From IMG/VR virus record IMGVR_UViG_3300009428_002990, positions 1 through 22,251 of that record: a DNA stretch of 22,251 nucleotides. One strand, written 5' to 3'. Below the pieces are notes generated by a model. The model made no database searches. It saw only the letters and a program-made list of their open reading frames with translations, and had not been told where the DNA came from. This document shows, piece after piece, positions 2,409-20,216 of the stretch. This DNA comes from a virus. The translations under genes and the position numbers were made by a program. Numbering within the stretch: the stretch's first letter is position 1; each line of letters starts with the position of its first letter.

Positions 2409-3145
2409 GTTCTATCCCTTAAATTAAAATTTGTGTTTCTGTCTAATGCATCTATTCTATCATACAATATAGGCGAGATGCTTTTAAGTCCTCTTCCGCC
2501 TTTAAGATAATATTCTTCAAAACCTGTTGCAAAATATTCCCTGACTGATGTTGCTGCGTATGGGCGGATGAATAAAGTTGGAGCAATATTTCTGATCAAG
2601 TCGTAGCCGACGTCATTTAATAAAAATTTATCAAAATCTGCATCAAACTCTGTGTTGATAAAATCAAAGTAATTGATCTCTGGAGAAGTAGAAGTAAGAT
2701 CTATTTCTTGAGTCAGAAGATCATGCAAGCGATTCATTTTTCCTAAATATTCTTGTATGATTCTTCCATCTTCGTATATCTCTTGAGTATTGTTCTCTTC
2801 GAACCTATGTGCAAACTCATGAATCAGATCGTCGAGAACATCTCTCTCTCCGCTTACCTTTGCACTATCAATATAAATGTTATCATTGTGATGTAAGGCA
2901 GTCAATTTTCTTTTTGTTAAGATGTCAAACGTTCCAAAATATATGTTGTTCAGCCCTTCATATGAAGACACCGGTAAATTAGAACGTAAAAGTGCCATCA
3001 CCTTTTCGATATCGATATCTTTAGGTAACGGCTCTTTTATTACAAATTCAATTCCACGATTAAAATAAAATCTTTTCTTTTCAGATAGCATCTTATTGTG
3101 TGATCGTTGCATCGACTTTATTAAGTTCTGTCTGTTCTTTGACAA
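2405..3145 (-). CDS. Zinc metallopeptidase-like protein (HExxH, lethal-factor-like fold)
   Basis: A 246-residue protein with HEFAH (H109, E110, H113) and a downstream VREYFATGFEEYYL segment (about 201-214) whose glutamates are good candidates for the third zinc ligand. The order, HExxH, then a helical stretch, then REYFATGFE and a SPxLYxxI tail, resembles the catalytic domain of anthrax lethal factor-type peptidases as I recall it in marine phages. I recognise the architecture but not a specific target. The start is unusual: TTG at 3145 has a strong AAGGAG six bases upstream, while the next ATG (3112) has none, so I chose TTG. The gene overlaps the upstream 84-aa gene by 53 bp. No signal peptide is seen, so it would act in the cytoplasm or from the virion. 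Confidence 0.8.
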   Translation of the reverse strand: MSKNRQNLIKSMQRSHNKMLSEKKRFYFNRGIEFVIKEPLPKDIDIEKVMALLRSNLPVSSYEGLNNIYFGTFDILTKRKLTALHHNDNIYIDSAKVSGERDVLDDLIHEFAHRFEENNTQEIYEDGRIIQEYLGKMNRLHDLLTQEIDLTSTSPEINYFDFINTEFDADFDKFLLNDVGYDLIRNIAPTLFIRPYAATSVREYFATGFEEYYLKGGRGLKSISPILYDRIDALDRNTNFNLRDRT

Positions 3146-3347
3146 GTCTCTCTCCTTCTTCTACATCGTTCAATGCTTGTTCATACCCTCTAACCCAATT
3201 TTCTTCCGCTACTAGTAACAGAAATTCAGGAAATTCGTCGGACATGACTTCAACAATGTGTTCGGCAGTCACATCTCCATTTTCAGGATTTGCTTTATTG
3301 CCTACATATGTAACTAAAACTTCTTTTAGTGTTTGAATATTTTCCAT
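3093..3347 (-). CDS. Small acidic protein, function unknown
   Basis: An 84-residue, acidic, mostly helical protein. The central part (TAEHIVEVMSDEFPEF, then VAEENWVRGYEQALNDVEEG) is the kind of compact helical sequence I recall from marine phage genomes without a known function. It is the first gene after a well-matched promoter (3368-3398). ATG at 3347 follows GGAGG with four bases between, giving a very short leader of roughly 13 nt. It overlaps the metallopeptidase start by 53 bp, so the two are co-transcribed. No catalytic motif or membrane segment is visible. Confidence 0.78.
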   Translation of the reverse strand: MENIQTLKEVLVTYVGNKANPENGDVTAEHIVEVMSDEFPEFLLLVAEENWVRGYEQALNDVEEGERLVKEQTELNKVDATITQ

Positions 3348-3367: not shown

Positions 3368-3398
3368 TATTATACGTTTGAAGGACAATGTTTATTCA
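3368..3398 (-). promoter_or_regulatory. Phage promoter, copy 1
   Basis: Minus strand: TGAATAAA, 11 nt, AAACGTATAATA. The TATAAT is a perfect sigma-70 minus 10 box, and GAATAA sits 17 bp upstream in the minus 35 place. It occupies the gap between the PhoH stop (3421) and the 84-aa gene (start 3347). It would start a transcript near 3361 covering the metallopeptidase and perhaps everything to the left edge. One of six copies of the same motif in the window. Confidence 0.82.
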
Positions 3399-4847: not shown

Positions 4848-5123
4848 TTATTTTAGCATTTTGATTTCTAGTATGAGATTACTAGTACCTTTAATTATCC
4901 TATGAAAAGACATTTTGGATATAAAATATTCTTTTCCTTCAATTAATTTTCTTGGAAGTTCGTTATCAAGTTGAAGGTACCACGAAGAGCCCTCAACAAC
5001 TTTTACAATACGATCCTCTCTGTCCATATGCCAAACCAATTCAGACGTGTCTACGTCCATCGTGAACGTCCTACGAACTATATTTTCTTCTATTTTGACT
5101 TGTTTGAAAGGAAAATCGCCCAT
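4848..5123 (-). CDS. Small cupin-like phage protein
   Basis: A 91-residue single-domain protein with the strand pattern of a small cupin: VRRTFTMDVDTSELVWH (17-33), DREDRIVKVVEGSSWYLQLD (34-53) and KEYFISKMSFHRIIKG (63-78). Histidines H32 and H74 and nearby acidic residues could bind metal, but a full two-histidine cupin motif is not clear. I recall very similar proteins in marine T4-like phages, without a function. ATG overlaps the stop of the tagged virion-like gene upstream (TAATG), so translation is coupled to it. Possibly a small structural or sugar-binding protein; that is a guess. Confidence 0.72.
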   Translation of the reverse strand: MGDFPFKQVKIEENIVRRTFTMDVDTSELVWHMDREDRIVKVVEGSSWYLQLDNELPRKLIEGKEYFISKMSFHRIIKGTSNLILEIKMLK

Positions 5124-5719
5124 TACCAGAATCTTCCGGGAACATTTGTCCCGAAATCTTTATGTGCTCTGCAAGCCCAGTATCCGGCTTTCGTACGATC
5201 CTTCTTCTCTTTACAGTTATGACGTGCCGCAAATGAATTGCGAGCCTCAGTGTTGTTCCAGTTACCTTTAAGTCCGCCTTTGGAGTCACCGTAGGAAATC
5301 TTCTTCACCCTTCCAGTCTTTTTGTTGCGAACATAAACTTGATACTTCTTTCCACCAGAGCCCTTCATCGGCTTTCCGATTGGGGGATCCTTTTTCTTTT
5401 TCTTCTTTTTCTTTTCTTCTAGGGTTTTCTCATACATTGGGAAATCTAATGGAACTTCTTCCCCTCTGAATGTTCCAGTTTCGCCAAGTTCAGACTCAAG
5501 CAGTTCTTTCTCTTCCTCGTTAAGAGGAATGTATATGCCTCTCTTGAACGCTGCTCGGGCTTCTTTAATTACCTTGAAGTATGAATCAGAGCCGATACGA
5601 TAGACGTTTTCTGTGAGAGGTGTTGCCGTGTCAATATGATGACGTAAGCCTTCTGAGAGGAGTGCGATTTGTGTTTCCTCTTTTACAACTCTCATCAGTT
5701 CTTGTTTGCTAATCTTCAT
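5123..5719 (-). CDS. Tagged lysine-rich probable virion protein with C-terminal His/Cys domain
   Basis: A 198-residue protein in three parts. Residues 1-20 carry the tag MKISKQELMRVVKEE shared with the next two genes upstream. Residues 21-100 are a moderately acidic region. After a run of eight lysines (103-110) comes a basic domain of about 80 residues (KKYQVYVRNKKTGRVKK, then ARNSFAARHNC, then AGYWACRAHKDFG). H167, C169, C183 and H186 could form a zinc site. I recall this C-terminal domain as common in marine phages, probably in virions, but have no named family. The start is ATG at 5719 because it forms an ATGA overlap with the upstream stop and has GGAG eight bases ahead; the longer reading starting at 5752 lacks such support. 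Function unknown; DNA or virion binding is inferred from charge. Confidence 0.8.
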   Translation of the reverse strand: MKISKQELMRVVKEETQIALLSEGLRHHIDTATPLTENVYRIGSDSYFKVIKEARAAFKRGIYIPLNEEEKELLESELGETGTFRGEEVPLDFPMYEKTLEEKKKKKKKKDPPIGKPMKGSGGKKYQVYVRNKKTGRVKKISYGDSKGGLKGNWNNTEARNSFAARHNCKEKKDRTKAGYWACRAHKDFGTNVPGRFW

Positions 5720-5952
5720 ACTGGTGGCTCCTCTTGTATTTTTTGGATGCAATTTTGAATGGCGCCAATTATATCCTTTGCGTTGACTCCCATTACATCA
5801 GATTGCTCTTTCAGTTGTTCCATGACTTGGACTAGATCTGAAATTGCTGCGCTGCGCAAGTTATCATGCAGATTGCTATCTACAAGATTAGAGTTTAAGT
5901 CATTTATCTCTTCTTTAACAATTTTTCTTAGGGCTTCTTTTGTGAGTTTCAT
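5716..5952 (-). CDS. Tagged small helical protein
   Basis: A 78-residue protein starting with MKLTKEALRKIVKEEI, nearly the same tag as its two neighbours. The rest is acidic and helical (LRSAAISDLVQVMEQLKEQ, then AKDIIGAIQNCIQKIQEE). No catalytic motif is seen. ATG at 5952 follows GGAAG and overlaps the upstream stop; its own TGA overlaps the next ATG. Three consecutive coupled genes beginning with the same 15-residue pattern point to one localisation or assembly signal rather than three enzymes. A head-internal or scaffold-associated protein is my inference. Confidence 0.74.
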   Translation of the reverse strand: MKLTKEALRKIVKEEINDLNSNLVDSNLHDNLRSAAISDLVQVMEQLKEQSDVMGVNAKDIIGAIQNCIQKIQEEPPV

Positions 5953-6275
5953 TTTTCTAACTTCCGTTGGAGTGCTTGTCGTATCTTGTCATCCTTACTT
6001 AGTTCTTCTTCGTCATTAAGTCCCGATGTCATCCAAGGATTAGGTTTGGCATCTTGAGATGCCTTCTTTGCCTGAATCTCGGCTGATGCGATAGGATCCT
6101 CATCGATCAACCTCGCTAGTTCCTTCATTTTGTCATCAATACTCAAATCAGCACGTTTCATAACTGCTGACATCTTGTCTTTAAGGCTTTCTTCAGATGG
6201 AACTGGTGATTCTGAAATCACGTTGTCTAATTCTTCTTTGACGAGCCGTCTTAATGTTTCTTTAGTGATTTTCAT
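5949..6275 (-). CDS. Tagged small acidic protein
   Basis: A 108-residue protein with N-terminal tag MKITKETLRRLVKEEL, then a low-complexity acidic and helical body (KDKMSAVMKRADLSIDDKM, later NDEEELSKDDKIRQALQRK). No known domain is recognised. ATG at 6275 forms an ATGA overlap with the lysine-rich gene upstream, with AAAGGA ahead of it. It belongs to the same coupled set as the two genes that follow and shares their tag, so it is probably part of the same assembly. Sequence shows a tag plus a variable body; the role is inferred. Confidence 0.74.
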   Translation of the reverse strand: MKITKETLRRLVKEELDNVISESPVPSEESLKDKMSAVMKRADLSIDDKMKELARLIDEDPIASAEIQAKKASQDAKPNPWMTSGLNDEEELSKDDKIRQALQRKLEK

Positions 6276-8076: not shown

Positions 8077-8152
8077 TGGTACACTCGATTGGACTCGAAC
8101 CAATAATCGATTGCTTAGAAGGCAATTGCATTATCCATTATGCTACGAGTGC
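8077..8152 (-). tRNA. tRNA-Arg(UCU), CCA encoded
   Basis: A complete 76-nt cloverleaf. The acceptor stem GCACTCG pairs with CGAGTGT (G-U at the first pair). The D stem is GCAT/ATGC. The anticodon stem ATTGC/GCAAT closes the loop CTTCTAA, with anticodon TCT. The T stem is ATTGG/CCAAT with loop TTCGAGT, then discriminator A and encoded CCA. It decodes AGA, a codon favoured in low-GC phages. It starts a few bases after promoter copy 2 and is followed by a 179-aa gene, so it is probably processed from a longer transcript. Confidence 0.96.
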
Positions 8153-8161
8153 CTATGTGAT

Positions 8162-8192
8162 TATTATACGTCTGAGGATAAAATTTTATTCA
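8162..8192 (-). promoter_or_regulatory. Phage promoter, copy 2 (ahead of tRNA-Arg)
   Basis: Minus strand: TGAATAAA, 11 nt, AGACGTATAATA. Same layout as the other copies, with a perfect TATAAT. It is embedded in the last codons of the HAD gene (reading VNKILSSDV and the stop), so those codons do double duty. Transcription would start near 8155, right at the 5' end of the tRNA. Confidence 0.84.
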
Positions 8193-9357: not shown

Positions 9358-9540
9358 TTATTCTTCTGTTGAAGTTTCTTCGGGATCTTCCACCTGTTCT
9401 TCCGTTTCCTCGGAAGCGGTATCCTCATTTTCTACTTCTTCTTCTTCGGCAGTCTCTTCGACTACTTCGTCTTGATCTACGCTTGTATCGTCATCTTTGT
9501 CTCCACAAGCGAAGAACATAAACATTAAACTACTAATCAT
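9358..9540 (-). CDS. Tiny acidic lipoprotein
   Basis: A 60-residue probable lipoprotein. It starts MISSLMFMFFACGDKDDD: a short hydrophobic signal ending in FFAC, with cysteine 12 as the lipidated residue. The rest is almost entirely Glu, Asp, Thr and Ser, so it is a disordered acidic tail outside the inner membrane. I chose ATG at 9540 with AAGGAG nine bases ahead; the longer frame from 9579 would lack a proper lipobox position. It overlaps the preceding lipoprotein gene by 8 bp and is followed by a terminator. Phage lipoproteins of this size often block superinfection, but nothing here proves that role. Confidence 0.78.
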   Translation of the reverse strand: MISSLMFMFFACGDKDDDTSVDQDEVVEETAEEEEVENEDTASEETEEQVEDPEETSTEE

Positions 9541-9778
9541 TATTGTTTTCTCCTTCAACATTAGTTGTATTATCATCATTAGTTGTAACAGTTTCAGTTT
9601 TGTTTTCCGTTACATTGTTTTTAACTTCTACCACAGTTGTTTCGGTATTAGTATTATCTTTAACTTCTACAGTTTTAACTTCCTTGGCGGTTGTGGGAGT
9701 AGGATTAGCAGTTGTAGTTGCTTGTTCCTTTTCTCCACACCCAATCAAGAATGCCATTATTAATAATTTAGTTTTCAT
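9533..9778 (-). CDS. Tiny Thr/Asn-rich lipoprotein
   Basis: An 81-residue probable lipoprotein beginning MKTKLLIMAFLIGCGEKEQ, with lipobox LIGC and cysteine 14 as the lipidation site. The mature part is a low-complexity string of Thr, Asn, Val, Lys and Glu with loose repeats of the type E-V-K-x-N. It is the first gene after promoter copy 3, with AAAGGAG five bases before ATG. It is coupled by overlap to a second lipoprotein gene. The pair resembles phage superinfection-exclusion or cell-surface proteins in size and type only. Rz1 outer spanins are also small lipoproteins, but no inner spanin partner is present. Confidence 0.8.
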   Translation of the reverse strand: MKTKLLIMAFLIGCGEKEQATTTANPTPTTAKEVKTVEVKDNTNTETTVVEVKNNVTENKTETVTTNDDNTTNVEGENNND

Positions 9779-9796: not shown

Positions 9797-9827
9797 TATT
9801 ATACGTTTGGGGTGATAGTTTTATTCA
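9797..9827 (-). promoter_or_regulatory. Phage promoter, copy 3 (lipoprotein unit)
   Basis: Minus strand: TGAATAAA, 11 nt, AAACGTATAATA. The TGA of the upstream element is also the stop codon of the small overlapping gene ending at 9825. The leader to the lipoprotein ATG (9778) is about 13 nt. The unit is closed by the terminator at 9312-9343, making a compact two-gene transcript. Confidence 0.86.
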
Positions 9828-10943: not shown

Positions 10944-10974
10944 TCTTATACGTTTATCAATGCAAAGATATTCA
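10944..10974 (-). promoter_or_regulatory. Phage promoter, copy 4 (uvsE)
   Basis: Minus strand: TGAATATC, 11 nt, AAACGTATAAGA. The spacer matches the other copies exactly; the minus 10 box reads TATAAG, the same variant as the plus-strand copy at 12534. It sits in the 65-bp gap before uvsE, giving a leader of about 20 nt. Confidence 0.8.
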
Positions 10975-10982
10975 CTTTTATT

Positions 10983-11258
10983 TTAAGATTCGTCGTCCAT
11001 GTCTTCTGTGGCTCCATCGCAATCACATGGATCGCACTCACAACATTCACAAAAGCAAGAAGACGAAACATATGCTGTATTAGTATTGGGTGTCTCTGTG
11101 GTTAGGTTTTTATCTATCGAAGTATTTTTTGCTGTGGCATAGTTATGACAAGGGATCTCATCGCCAGTAATCATATCATATACACTGAATTTGCCTATAA
11201 ATTTTGTTGATTTTATCACAATATACCTTTGTTCATCCTGCCCAAACTGACTAATCAT
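10983..11258 (-). CDS. Small protein with dense cysteine/acid cluster at the C terminus
   Basis: A 91-residue protein. The first half (DEQRYIVIKSTKFIGKFSVY, then MITGDEIPCHNY) looks like a small beta fold. The second half has a Thr/Asn-rich linker and then CFCECCECDPCDCDG (about 68-82), seven cysteines in thirteen residues alternating with acidic residues, followed by an acidic end. Such spacing fits a metal-thiolate cluster like that of metallothioneins, though it is too short to assign. I chose ATG at 11258, which overlaps the upstream stop (ATGA) and has GGGAG five bases ahead; the longer frame from 11303 would overlap the preceding gene by 49 bp. Function unknown. Confidence 0.72.
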   Translation of the reverse strand: MISQFGQDEQRYIVIKSTKFIGKFSVYDMITGDEIPCHNYATAKNTSIDKNLTTETPNTNTAYVSSSCFCECCECDPCDCDGATEDMDDES

Positions 11259-11602
11259 TCCCTCTCCCATGTTTTGATTTCGTAACCGAATTGTTTGAGA
11301 CACCTCTTATACTGATTCATATCTATACCCAATAATCTAGATGCTTCAGCATTACTGGAAGCAATATTGATAATAGAGTTTACTAAAGCCTCTGAAACTA
11401 TCTTATGGGTGTTCTTCCATAAAGGAAAGTTAAAGAATTTAAAGTTTAGACTTTTCAAAGTTGTTTCCAACTTAATAGAAATTAAATCTTCTAAAGATAA
11501 TGTCTCAACATATAATACGAATTGATCATCTATTTTATTCAAACTTTTTAGTTCTGATATCTTAGAGTAGTTTTTATAGTATAGTATTTTCTTTTCTTTC
11601 AT
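11255..11602 (-). CDS. Putative DNA-binding protein with C-terminal Fis-like helix-turn-helix
   Basis: A 115-residue basic protein. The N-terminal two thirds are lysine- and leucine-rich without a known domain. The last 45 residues (KIVSEALVNSIINIA, then SSNAEASRLLGIDMNQYKRCLKQFGYE) have the pattern of a Fis/NtrC-type helix-turn-helix: a long helix, then EASRLLGI as the turn and a basic recognition helix. It could regulate phage transcription, and is the only regulator-like gene in the window. The start ATG at 11602 has no ribosome site; it directly follows TATTTATACT after an extremely AT-rich block, so translation may be leaderless or inefficient. HTH call is moderate, role inferred. Confidence 0.68.
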   Translation of the reverse strand: MKEKKILYYKNYSKISELKSLNKIDDQFVLYVETLSLEDLISIKLETTLKSLNFKFFNFPLWKNTHKIVSEALVNSIINIASSNAEASRLLGIDMNQYKRCLKQFGYEIKTWERE

Positions 11603-11659: not shown

Positions 11660-12514
11660 TTATAAATCTAATCCTAACCCTAAACTATCTTCAGCACCTG
11701 TAGTATCATCTTCACCTTGATCTAGTTTCGCTTCAGCGTCATCAATAGCATCTAGTGAGTCTTGTGGAATCTCAGGTTGAGGATCATTTGACAATGATTT
11801 TTCAAATCTATCAAAATACATATTCAGGTTTGCAATTAAGAATTTCTTAAATTCATATTTATCAGCAGGATTGCCTAAAGTGTTGTATATATTTGATATA
11901 TTATTCTCAATCTTAGAAAAAGAAGTTCCAGCCTTATTTCTACCAGTAGCATCGATATCAGGATCAATAGATTCAGCATTTTCATCGTCTTCTTTACCTT
12001 GCTCTTCTTCTTTTTCATCTCTTGCCGGGCCAACCATTTTATCTTCAGGTAATTCATCATCATCTACTGTTATTTGAATATCAGCCTCTTGTTCGAAAAT
12101 GTAATGTAGAGATTCGTTTAGACTCTCATCTTTTTCGCTTCCTATATCTTCAATTTTAAACATGTCCAGAACCTTACTCATGATATGTCCACGATAGTCT
12201 GTTCTTTGTTCAAACGAGGTTGTAAGCATCTTATAATCAGATTCCAAAACAGATAATATGTTTGAGTTAGAAAACAAATCCTCCAATGCGTTCATTCCGG
12301 TTGAGGAGTGAACCATATTAACTTTCTTTTCAAAAAGGTTTTGTATTTCTTTTCTAGTTTTTAATCTATAAATCTTTTCTATAATTATTTCTTTTTTTTT
12401 CTTTTCTTCTAATAGTATATTATAACTATTAATAGTATTACGGATTCTGGAACGATAAACTCTTTCAGAAAGAATCTGTTTATCTATGCTCTCAAATAAG
12501 TCTTCTCTTTTCAT
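11660..12514 (-). CDS. Acidic probable virion-associated protein
   Basis: A 284-residue acidic protein of unknown function. It has a basic helical N-terminal tag (MKREDLFESIDKQILSER, then LLEEKKKK), a helical region to about 125, a strongly acidic disordered stretch (151-190), and a conserved-looking domain ATGRNKAGTSFSKIENNI to MYFDRFEKSL (189-241). I recall the last domain from T4-like marine phages, near structural genes, without a function. I chose ATG at 12514, with GGAG nine bases ahead; the longer frame from 12529 would start with TTG on the ribosome site itself. The gap upstream contains the plus-strand promoter copy. Structural role is inferred. Confidence 0.74.
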   Translation of the reverse strand: MKREDLFESIDKQILSERVYRSRIRNTINSYNILLEEKKKKEIIIEKIYRLKTRKEIQNLFEKKVNMVHSSTGMNALEDLFSNSNILSVLESDYKMLTTSFEQRTDYRGHIMSKVLDMFKIEDIGSEKDESLNESLHYIFEQEADIQITVDDDELPEDKMVGPARDEKEEEQGKEDDENAESIDPDIDATGRNKAGTSFSKIENNISNIYNTLGNPADKYEFKKFLIANLNMYFDRFEKSLSNDPQPEIPQDSLDAIDDAEAKLDQGEDDTTGAEDSLGLGLDL

Positions 12515-12533
12515 TTTTATATTCTCCAAATGA

Positions 12534-12564
12534 TGAATAAAGTAATTAGTTCAAACGTATAAGA
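12534..12564 (+). promoter_or_regulatory. Phage promoter, copy 5, opposite strand (antisense)
   Basis: Plus strand: TGAATAAA, 11 nt, AAACGTATAAGA. This is as good a match as the minus-strand copies, with the exact spacer, but points the other way. It overlaps the stop codon of the 902-aa gene (12546-12548) and would start RNA near 12571, antisense to that gene's 3' end. No convincing plus-strand gene follows. It could make a regulatory antisense RNA. Confidence 0.72.
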
Positions 12565-15254
12565 TTATGAAGGATTTTTTCAACTAAACTGTTGACGATA
12601 CTATCTTCATTATAATAGGGGGCTCTCTTGTCGGTATATGCACTATCAATCTTAAATCTATTTCTATTCCATTTTTTATATGAGTATGCGGAATCCTCAC
12701 TAACATTAGCACCATTGGTTTGGTGTCTGTTGGTGGGATTGATTCGTACTGTCATCATCGACAAGCCTTCTTGGTGTGGAGCCGTTGGACTATTGACAGT
12801 CTCTTTGACTGCGTCCTCATCCTCATCCTCACGCCTTCTTTGTACTGGCTTAGATCCTCCTAGAGCCACGTTGCCTTGAGCCATAGATGATATTTCATCT
12901 AACTCAACTTGCTCTGCTAGAATCGACTTAATCATCTCTTGGATGATATTAACAGATTCATTCACTTCTCCAGAGCCAAAAATAGCACGAAGATATTGTT
13001 CGACATTTGAAGCGCCAACAAAATCTTTTAGAAGTGAGTCAACAGGAAGATTATATACTTTCTTCAAATCTAATAAGAGTCGAAGATCAGTAGCACTATA
13101 ATTTTCTTTATCAAGATTAATCGGGGTAGATTTCATGAACTTGGCAATTTTTGTTTTATTTACTTTAGATAAAGAATTAATTAAATCACTTTTTGATGGA
13201 TTTGCAGGAAGTTTCTTTCTTGCTCTTGACGATACAAGTCCTTTTGCTAGTTCAAGTGCTTTGTATTCAACATCCGCTTGTATAGATTTGATGATCATTT
13301 CAGAACCCTTGATCAACTCTGCCAAACTTTCAGAATATTCCGGAGAATGTTTAAATGCAGGAGAAAACAGTACTTGTACATTTGGTTCTTCCTCATACAT
13401 ACTAAATCTAGCCATCGAGCCAGAATCACCTTTCTCTTTCTCTGACATCCCAAGGTATAACTTGTCATAGTCTTCTTCAAAGAAATCAAAATCAGAATAA
13501 TATGTTCTCTCGCTAGCAGGTTTCATTATCTCAGACAAAGCCATTATAGGAGAAGGACTAGGGCTGGAACTTTCAACTAGTCTAATATTTCCAGATTTCC
13601 CACCTAACAAGGTTCTCCAAAGTTCAATTGACTTTTCATATGATATTTCAGTTCTTGAGAATGGCAAGAATCTCTTCGAGCCTTTAGGGGAAGATACAAA
13701 AATTAAAACTTCATCAGCAATTCCTGCAAAATGTTCCGCCATCTGTAAGTGCCCATTATGTGGGGGTTTGAACGAGCCGGGCATAATAGCAACTGTCTTT
13801 GTTCCTCGGGACTGTACGGTGGTTTGTTCTGCATCTTCATCACCAATTTCTTTCGGAGCCAAGTCTTGCATTTCAGAAGACTCATTAACAGCACCGGGCT
13901 TCTTTGCCATTGCCTGTGCCAAGTTACTTCCCATACCATCACGAATAAAATCTCCTGTAATCTTAATTGGCTTATCTACGCCAAAGATTTTTGAAGATCT
14001 CATCACGATTCCTTCATGACTAGTTAGTGCTTCATTACCGACTTTAGACTTGTTGACTAAAGTTACCAACACTGCTCTGCCTAAAAGTCTTGTAGCGTGA
14101 TAAAATATTGCTCCTGAACAGAATTTATAATAGTCGTCTTCTGTCAATTCAGGGTGAACAGTTTCATCTAACAGTTGTCTAACTGAATACTGCTCTTCTC
14201 CGGAGTCTGGAATGAGAGCGACATAATTTGCTTTACTAAAATAGGATCTCTTTTTCCCATCAGCAAAAGTATACTTTTCTACATACGATGGCTTTACAAT
14301 CTTAGAATCCTTTAACCAACTCTCTAGAGATTTTGCAACAGCGTTTTGATCGTCCAATTTTACCTCTATAACCTCTCCTAGGACACTAGTATAGTCAATG
14401 GGCACCTCTCCTTTTAAAGCGACAGTATCAAAGGGTGAGAGCGCTCTAAATGCTGCATTGGGGTTAGTTTCATTTAATATCTTAACCAATTCCACTAACG
14501 CTTGTTTTTGAGCACTAGACAAAACAACCTCTCTAGTTTTTCTAGTCTTCTTTCCTTCGGGAGAGAAGATTTCATTAACTCCGTGAAATGCAATGAAATT
14601 TTCGTCATACTTCACAGCATTGACTTGTCCGTTTGCCTTGCCCTCTTCGTGAACAATATCGTTGTTTAGGCATATGTTGGGGTTATCCCACATATTCAGT
14701 TCTCTTAAAACTTGCTCCATTCCAGAAGTATTTGATTTTAAAGCATTATTTAACATCGTCAAAGCAACTCCGCCATCACTAACAAAACCATGTCCGCTAG
14801 TAATGCTCTTGATGATTACTTCTTTCTTCTTTTTACTATGCGTAATGTTAAGTTTCTTCCCAACAACAATTTTATTTAAACTAATTCCCATTGCAACTAA
14901 CTTGTGCAAAGGAATGGTTATCTCTTCGTCTGTGTCAAGTGATTGGAGTATAGCCTTTTCAAATCTTTCTTTGAGACGATTAATGGTGATGCCTTCTCTA
15001 TCAATTGGGGCTCTAGACATTCTGTCGATTGCGAACTCTTTCTCTCCCAAAGGATTTTGAACAAGCCGAATCGGTCCATTAATCCCATCAATTTTAATTG
15101 ACGGGGTGAACTGTTCAATATATTGCTGCGGTTTCCCTTCTTCTCCGCCTCTTCCGGTAAAAAACTCTAATAAGTCTTTTCCATTTCTGACGTAGTCTAA
15201 GTCAAAAGGATGCCACATGTGCCCAACCGGTCCTTCAGTAAGTAATTTCTTCAT
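12546..15254 (-). CDS. Two-domain enzyme: ligase-like domain fused to HxGH nucleotidyltransferase
   Basis: A 902-residue protein. It starts MKKLLTEGPVGHMWHPFDLD, an opening I recall from a marine phage family. KIDGING (54-60) resembles the nucleotidylated-lysine motif I of DNA/RNA ligases, EGIVMRS (414-420) resembles motif IV and KITGDF (431-436) motif V, so the first 450 residues look like a covalent nucleotidyltransferase. Residues 486-760 form a second domain with GSFKPPHNGH (493-502) and YSATDLR (719-725), the HxGH and ISSTxxR signatures of adenylyl/cytidylyltransferases. A C-terminal tail (770-902) holds a tag (NIIQEMIKSILAEQ), an acidic-arginine string and ELDEISSMAQGN. Two nucleotide-transfer domains in one chain suggest RNA/DNA end or sugar-nucleotide chemistry; the substrate is unknown. 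The ligase distance K54-E414 is long, so that domain is less certain. Confidence 0.82.
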   Translation of the reverse strand: MKKLLTEGPVGHMWHPFDLDYVRNGKDLLEFFTGRGGEEGKPQQYIEQFTPSIKIDGINGPIRLVQNPLGEKEFAIDRMSRAPIDREGITINRLKERFEKAILQSLDTDEEITIPLHKLVAMGISLNKIVVGKKLNITHSKKKKEVIIKSITSGHGFVSDGGVALTMLNNALKSNTSGMEQVLRELNMWDNPNICLNNDIVHEEGKANGQVNAVKYDENFIAFHGVNEIFSPEGKKTRKTREVVLSSAQKQALVELVKILNETNPNAAFRALSPFDTVALKGEVPIDYTSVLGEVIEVKLDDQNAVAKSLESWLKDSKIVKPSYVEKYTFADGKKRSYFSKANYVALIPDSGEEQYSVRQLLDETVHPELTEDDYYKFCSGAIFYHATRLLGRAVLVTLVNKSKVGNEALTSHEGIVMRSSKIFGVDKPIKITGDFIRDGMGSNLAQAMAKKPGAVNESSEMQDLAPKEIGDEDAEQTTVQSRGTKTVAIMPGSFKPPHNGHLQMAEHFAGIADEVLIFVSSPKGSKRFLPFSRTEISYEKSIELWRTLLGGKSGNIRLVESSSPSPSPIMALSEIMKPASERTYYSDFDFFEEDYDKLYLGMSEKEKGDSGSMARFSMYEEEPNVQVLFSPAFKHSPEYSESLAELIKGSEMIIKSIQADVEYKALELAKGLVSSRARKKLPANPSKSDLINSLSKVNKTKIAKFMKSTPINLDKENYSATDLRLLLDLKKVYNLPVDSLLKDFVGASNVEQYLRAIFGSGEVNESVNIIQEMIKSILAEQVELDEISSMAQGNVALGGSKPVQRRREDEDEDAVKETVNSPTAPHQEGLSMMTVRINPTNRHQTNGANVSEDSAYSYKKWNRNRFKIDSAYTDKRAPYYNEDSIVNSLVEKILHNLIRLN

Positions 15255-19624: not shown

Positions 19625-20110
19625 TTATCCTTTAAGATTGACAGTAAAAGAATTTTTACCATTTATATCTTTAAGAACGAGAGTTTCTCCATCATGAAGT
19701 TTCTTCATGTCTGATTTATTGATTACAATATCAATTTCGATGTCATGACTTGCCGTGTCAACCTTTCCATCTATAGATTCTTCCATTGTTTCATCATCAC
19801 CACCGATATAACCGTCTAGGTAATCATAAACTTTGGAAATATAATCTGATGCTTTCGTTATTTTAGCCTGAACCCAAGCAGGAAGGTTTTCTTCTCCCAT
19901 GTTAGACATTCTGTCGGATAGCGATTGCGAGTATCTAGCAGTCTTCTCTAGTTGTTGCGAAGCCATAGATACCTCATGATCCACCTCACCTGTTATAGTG
20001 ACGTTAGATGCTTCTGGTGCCTTTGTAATAGCATCTGTCATATCATTGCTTCCGCAATTATTTTCCATAAGCCATATAACTTCTTGCTTTGTTAATGTGT
20101 AGTTACTCAT
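19625..20110 (-). CDS. Protein with a helical module common in marine phages
   Basis: A 161-residue acidic protein. After an N-terminal tag-like part (YTLTKQEVIWLMENN, 4-18) comes a helical module, residues 45-102, with HEVSMASQQLEKTARYS, then ENLPAWVQAKITKASDYISK. I recall this pattern (a helix, then P-x-W-V-Q-x-K-I-T-x-A-x-D-Y) in several virion-associated proteins of marine T4-like phages. Residues 120-161 form a small beta region (ASHDIEIDIVINKSDMKKL). ATG at 20110 follows GGAG nine bases ahead. No enzyme motif. The module probably serves in virion assembly; function not established. Confidence 0.75.
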   Translation of the reverse strand: MSNYTLTKQEVIWLMENNCGSNDMTDAITKAPEASNVTITGEVDHEVSMASQQLEKTARYSQSLSDRMSNMGEENLPAWVQAKITKASDYISKVYDYLDGYIGGDDETMEESIDGKVDTASHDIEIDIVINKSDMKKLHDGETLVLKDINGKNSFTVNLKG

Positions 20111-20188: not shown

Positions 20189-20216
20189 ACTCTTTAAATA
20201 GTAAAAATGAAGCAGA

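Follow-up and report, generated by a model that had tools for sequence, protein, structure and literature searches.

We identified, on the plus strand at positions 12534-12564 of a 22-kb uncultured-virus record (22,251 nucleotides, analyzed whole and hereafter called the window), a sequence that is very probably a promoter under selection, belonging to an early-type motif class and facing against the genes. This reading is based on three lines of evidence: the site is the sole opposite-strand position of its class, it is conserved across relatives, and it stands out in a synonymous recoding test. The names early-type and late-type, applied here to two motifs, follow an analogy with T4-type phages, and the timing that they suggest is a predicted one.

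Results

A promoter motif opposing the genes of the window

The plus-strand sequence at 12534-12564 is TGAATAAAGTAATTAGTTCAAACGTATAAGA, composed of TGAATAAA at 12534-12541, a 14-base spacer, and CGTATAAG at 12556-12563; its assignment as a predicted promoter comes from the sequence, the motif profile, and the shared position in relatives. Its core, GAATAAA-N14-CGTATAA, has zero mismatches, as do three minus-strand copies (3370-3397, 8164-8191, and 9799-9826). The earlier note on this DNA had described the site as a perfect copy; the core and spacer are indeed intact, but a G follows CGTATAA where the three best gene-strand copies have a T, and the A-rich upstream tract typical of the motif is missing. 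No other copy in the window opposes the genes, the runner-up opposite-strand site scoring below 0. The TGAATAAA, 14-base spacer, and CGTATA of the class are all present, but the site departs from the habit of the class, whose members are typically found on the gene strand, a short way ahead of a start codon: its nearest candidate start is an antisense TTG about 58 bases on.

The site overlaps the 3' end of a 902-aa gene (12546-15254, minus strand; CTP_transf_like domain at residues 489-535), covering its final codons (IRLN) and stop, as had been claimed, together with most of the 16-base gap downstream, in which its -35 part sits. This gap separates the 902-aa stop from the start of a 289-aa gene (11660-12529, minus strand). 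The N-terminal part of the 902-aa protein contains KIDGING, which we take to resemble the nucleotidyltransferase motif of ligases. The claim that all genes are on the minus strand, judged from open reading frames (ORFs), agrees with about 21.4 kb of minus-strand ORF versus 0.3 kb of plus-strand ORF in the window. The predicted RNA would start near 12570 (plus strand), and because the ORF list shows no apparent plus-strand gene downstream of 12570 within the window, the transcript would run antisense; entry into the 902-aa gene, which the earlier note had also proposed, is expected from the orientation of the predicted promoter.

The early-type motif class

Relatives were obtained from IMG/VR by protein and by motif, and ten contigs were examined in full. 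The motif profile was built from 116 distinct copies and used with a threshold of 14 to scan 628 kb in 11 related contigs; its training set includes the opposite-strand copies, a minor circularity as they make up a small share. In the consensus of the 116 copies, an A-rich upstream tract and TGAATAAA are followed by a 14-base spacer whose last bases are YTCAAa, by CGTATA, and then mostly by A or G. With the thresholds tried, the profile scan found about 206 copies in the 628 kb versus 0-2 in shuffled sequence, which, together with the shared position in relatives that hold the gene pair, excludes chance for the site at 12534-12564. For 204 gene-strand copies, the predicted RNA start lies a median of 26 bases ahead of the next start codon.

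The motif shares with the sigma-70 family the -10 hexamer TATAAT and the usual geometry, with 17 bases between the hexamers (16-18 in the sigma-70 consensus), and differs from it in having an unusual -35, GAATAA instead of TTGACA, CG before the -10, and a TCAA element ahead. A general sigma-70 scan gave 85 matches against 65 expected and was uninformative, and a text search for the motif showed no relevant phage promoter among the titles and abstracts listed. In G010, a related contig of 185 kb, gene-strand copies crowd the interval 122-145 kb, a region of small genes, and the motif is absent from the head, sheath, and baseplate regions; this distribution, concentrated among small genes and lacking in structural blocks, suggests that the class is active early in infection.

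Gene-strand copies of the window, all on the minus strand, are found at 3368-3398 (upstream of the ORF 3093-3347), 8162-8192 (upstream of the tRNA-Arg at 8077-8152), 9797-9827 (upstream of the ORF 9533-9778), and, as weaker copies, at 10944-10974 (just upstream of a UvdE-like gene) and 11511-11541. This last copy, the nearest to the opposing site, lies inside a 115-aa ORF and keeps its position in relatives, where its -10 reads, for instance, CGTATTATA or CGTATATTA; there may thus be an internal promoter or a shorter product.

A late-type motif and its gene blocks

Another motif consists of ACTATTTA with A or T after it; it has 17 gene-strand and 0 opposite-strand copies in G010 (L064-L073), many of them shortly preceding structural genes (head, sheath, and others). 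We regard it as a candidate late promoter, unlike the TATAAATA of T4. In the window, it occurs with a following A at 20195-20202 (minus strand), upstream of the ORF 19625-20110 and in a block without early-type copies. Late-type motifs and zero early-type copies characterize a block of 14-17 kb, and the predicted promoter at 12534-12564 lies at its downstream end. By orientation, the predicted RNA would be complementary to the 902-aa gene, whose putative late timing is read from the motif distribution only. The other late-type blocks of G010, including those with head, sheath, and baseplate genes, have no opposite-strand promoter.

The same position in relatives

Homologues of the 902-aa protein, 57-69% identical, are present in six contigs. 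The 289-aa protein evolves fast, and a search based on it yielded no relatives; nor is the 902-aa protein encoded by any record of the phage collection. Above threshold, five of the approximately 206 motif copies are on the opposite strand, and all five occupy one place, the 3' terminus of the 902-aa homologue; they come from the window, G001, G002, G003, and G004, of which G003 and G004 are near-identical there. At a lower threshold, the top opposite-strand site of G010, whose homologue is 57% identical, falls at the same place and reads TGAATAAA-N14-CGTATTATA, with the -10 that sense promoters of that contig also use. G019 has a damaged copy there, TGAATATT-N14-CGTATAAG. In L011, which encodes a 32%-identical homologue, there is no site at this place, and the motif was not found on that contig.

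Apart from the window, four IMG/VR contigs contain an exact match to the site, spacer included. The 31 bases of the site are nearly invariant across relatives while the flanking codons vary, and the gap sequence TTACTTTATTCA, which includes the first three bases past the stop, is invariant in five lineages, being noncoding and not the ribosome site of the 289-aa gene. A weaker opposite-strand motif, TGAATATC-N14-CGTATAATC, was also observed in two relatives inside the 289-aa homologue, about 475 bases from the main site (G001:13481-13509, minus strand; G019:27027-27055, plus strand).

Constraint beyond the protein code

A lack of conservation in relatives was part of what the earlier note had named as refuting its proposal. 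The proposal withstood this check: five lineages retain the motif here and a sixth has a degraded copy, and the motif is maintained beyond the needs of the protein code. In our recoding test, the amino acids, the codon usage, and the real gap sequence were fixed and synonymous codons were drawn at random. The observed profile score was matched in 0.0004-0.005 of the trials in five genomes; the value for G010 was 0.18, since the profile penalises CGTATT, and the fraction keeping CGTAT[AT] at all was 0.067.

Synonymous conservation over the last 40 codons of the 902-aa gene is 1.26-1.31 times the expectation and about 1.0 beyond them. With the promoter columns excluded, the 30 columns beside the promoter still give 1.27 times (column-permutation P 0.0004), a level attained by only 17 of 537 other windows, with the highest near codon 279. 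The rise is confined to roughly the first 100 bases of the predicted RNA, where GCC CCC, both minority codons with usages of 16% and 12%, are invariant in six genomes. Synonymous conservation of the gene has its other peak at codons ~279-305 (window ~14340-14420, minus strand; P ~0.003), which may contain an overlapping element of its own.

A candidate ORF in the antisense frame

The reverse complement of these invariant GCC CCC codons is AGGGGG (12617-12622, plus strand), which is similar to a ribosome-binding site, and a TTG lies 5 bases past it, at a fixed spacing in 6/6 genomes. From this TTG, a candidate overprinted ORF of 83 aa runs along 12628-12879 (plus strand). TTG is a weak start, and AGGGGG differs from the usual AGGAG. 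The frame is open for 83, 98, 101, 96, 82, and 159 codons in the six genomes, with differing endpoints, and it is retained in G019, where the -35 is damaged. The probability of its staying open this long under synonymous recoding is 0.005-0.1 per genome, and random starts reach values of 0.02 or less only 0.4% of the time, so the open frame is retained in relatives beyond chance. Stop avoidance was tested at 11,085 positions of 27 genes that have homologues in several contigs, and it is strongest here. Over ten genes, five antisense starts are conserved in all six genomes, and only this one opens a long ORF; open runs of 100-170 codons also occur elsewhere in the 902-aa gene in the same frame.

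It is important to note that this frame is the one in which the two strands share their wobble positions. Part of the antisense similarity therefore comes at no cost, protein similarity is little informative, and the power of the coding tests is low. A matched test counted 6 wobble substitutions changing the antisense protein, against an expectation of 11.9; this ratio is the lowest of the gene (P 0.008, from a test of low power, and optimistic, as P values are here, because the genomes are related). A raw contrast of wobble changes, 6/111 against 536/2372 in the rest of the gene, was set aside because it mostly reflects two-fold codons; the matched test reduces it to the figures above. Antisense identity at the ORF slightly exceeds sense identity, the reverse of the rest of the gene (rank 16 of 853 windows). 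As the tests are correlated and the genomes related, they are only suggestive. The product is of low complexity and matches no Pfam family. It may be, and we put this forward tentatively, that this T4-type lineage holds a small early gene wholly antisense inside the 902-aa gene, with its own promoter over the stop of that gene and a ribosome-binding site made from its minority invariant codons.

Discussion

The explanation that we favor, while giving it a little less than an even chance, is that the site drives an early transcript acting as mRNA for a small overprinted protein. RNA polymerase would start near 12570 at the early-type promoter, and it would probably be that of the host, in view of the -10 TATAAT placed 17 bases past GAATAA. 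Transcribing the plus strand, it would enter the 902-aa gene at its 3' end and produce a leader some 58 bases long with AGGGGG as its last element; the TTG start lies 5 bases further, and from there an ORF of at least 82 codons hidden in the antisense frame would be translated; additional antisense effects on the 902-aa mRNA may follow. Promoter activity, early timing, and translation are all three predicted from the comparison of sequences.

A purely regulatory antisense RNA is a serious candidate that we consider somewhat doubtful. Early transcription would then lower or delay 902-aa expression and limit read-through across the late block, by polymerase collision, RNA duplex formation, or altered mRNA stability. 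Its orientation and its site at the downstream end of the 14-17 kb late-type block agree with such a role, and raised synonymous conservation over only some 100 bases at the start of the RNA would be consistent with a short one. There is also a precedent in the Pseudomonas phage PAK_P3, where RNA sequencing revealed 20 antisense RNAs, the early ones mostly over structural genes (PMC4933390). Our case resembles it in that an RNA, probably made early, is expected against genes of a late-type region; it differs in that the PAK_P3 RNAs were sequenced, whereas here one position is predicted from a promoter conserved in distant relatives and is accompanied by a candidate ORF. General silencing of late genes is weakened by the fact that G010 has a single such promoter in 185 kb and none at its other late-type blocks. 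Folding also failed to supply the features of a structured RNA: the stability of the antisense leader was not above that of shuffles, no shared terminator or conserved structure that could back a read-through block was found, the consensus fold was weak and partly within the promoter, and an Rfam search returned tRNA only. A silencing or read-through purpose, as suggested in the earlier note, would, moreover, leave the AGGGGG-TTG context and the stop avoidance unpredicted, and it loses weight because a start site and an ORF, both conserved, seem to be present on the RNA. One promoter at one place, with the other late-type blocks lacking it, leads us to favor a specific product, the overprinted protein, over general late-gene silencing.

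We consider it improbable that the site is a regulatory relic or a protein-binding site with no present role in transcription, kept by slow divergence: the degraded copy in G019 would suit a relic, but the near-invariance of the 31 bases against differing flanking codons and the outcome of the recoding test would not. A replication primer, in which the transcript would form an R-loop and so initiate replication in the manner of T4 origins, is slightly less probable still. An early-mode promoter is believed to be needed for T4 oriE (PMC3016281), and the likeness extends to the early class of the promoter, a possible non-messenger role, and a T4-type phage, given the T4-type head, tail, and helicase genes of the relatives. 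In six genomes, the A+T content is 70-78% at 65-115 bases past the predicted start, with a G-rich stretch before it. Against a primer, we found none of the evenly spaced 12-base direct repeats (iterons) of oriE and no composition sign of a replication start, the GC skew of G010 showing no clear shift at the site, and the coding strand does not switch there. A coincidence of codons and gap sequence is scarcely credible, since the overlap with conserved codons that might produce one is outweighed by the single opposite-strand position across all contigs, the recoding test, and the noncoding TTACTTTATTCA kept in five lineages.

It is mostly through RNA sequencing that phage antisense RNAs come to light, and separating them from noise is difficult. 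Here, comparative sequence alone singles out one opposing promoter that appears to be selected, so its function becomes testable at a named base. Antisense RNAs are known in the phages AR9 and phiR1-37; according to the accessible parts of the two reports, the AR9 transcripts are mostly late and one of phiR1-37 lies at the 3' end of a gene, and these parts describe neither a motif holding its position across relatives nor a candidate ORF (PMC5312081, PMC4848604). What our case appears to add is a single antisense promoter that is predicted from sequence, conserved in distant relatives, and accompanied by a candidate overprinted ORF. Should this ORF prove real, antisense genes with ordinary promoters are being overlooked in the gene catalogues of large phages. 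In addition, two readable promoter classes would allow the genes of this lineage to be sorted into early and late without culture.

Other features of the window and its relatives

G010 contains a tmRNA gene (L070:1573-1912, plus strand; RF00023, 115 bits) with the predicted tag ANNNNHFDSVRLAA, adjoining four tRNAs. In the window, three adjacent genes at 5123-6275 (minus strand) share a common N-terminus like MKITKETLRRLVKEE, which presumably recalls the capsid-targeting leaders of T4 internal proteins.
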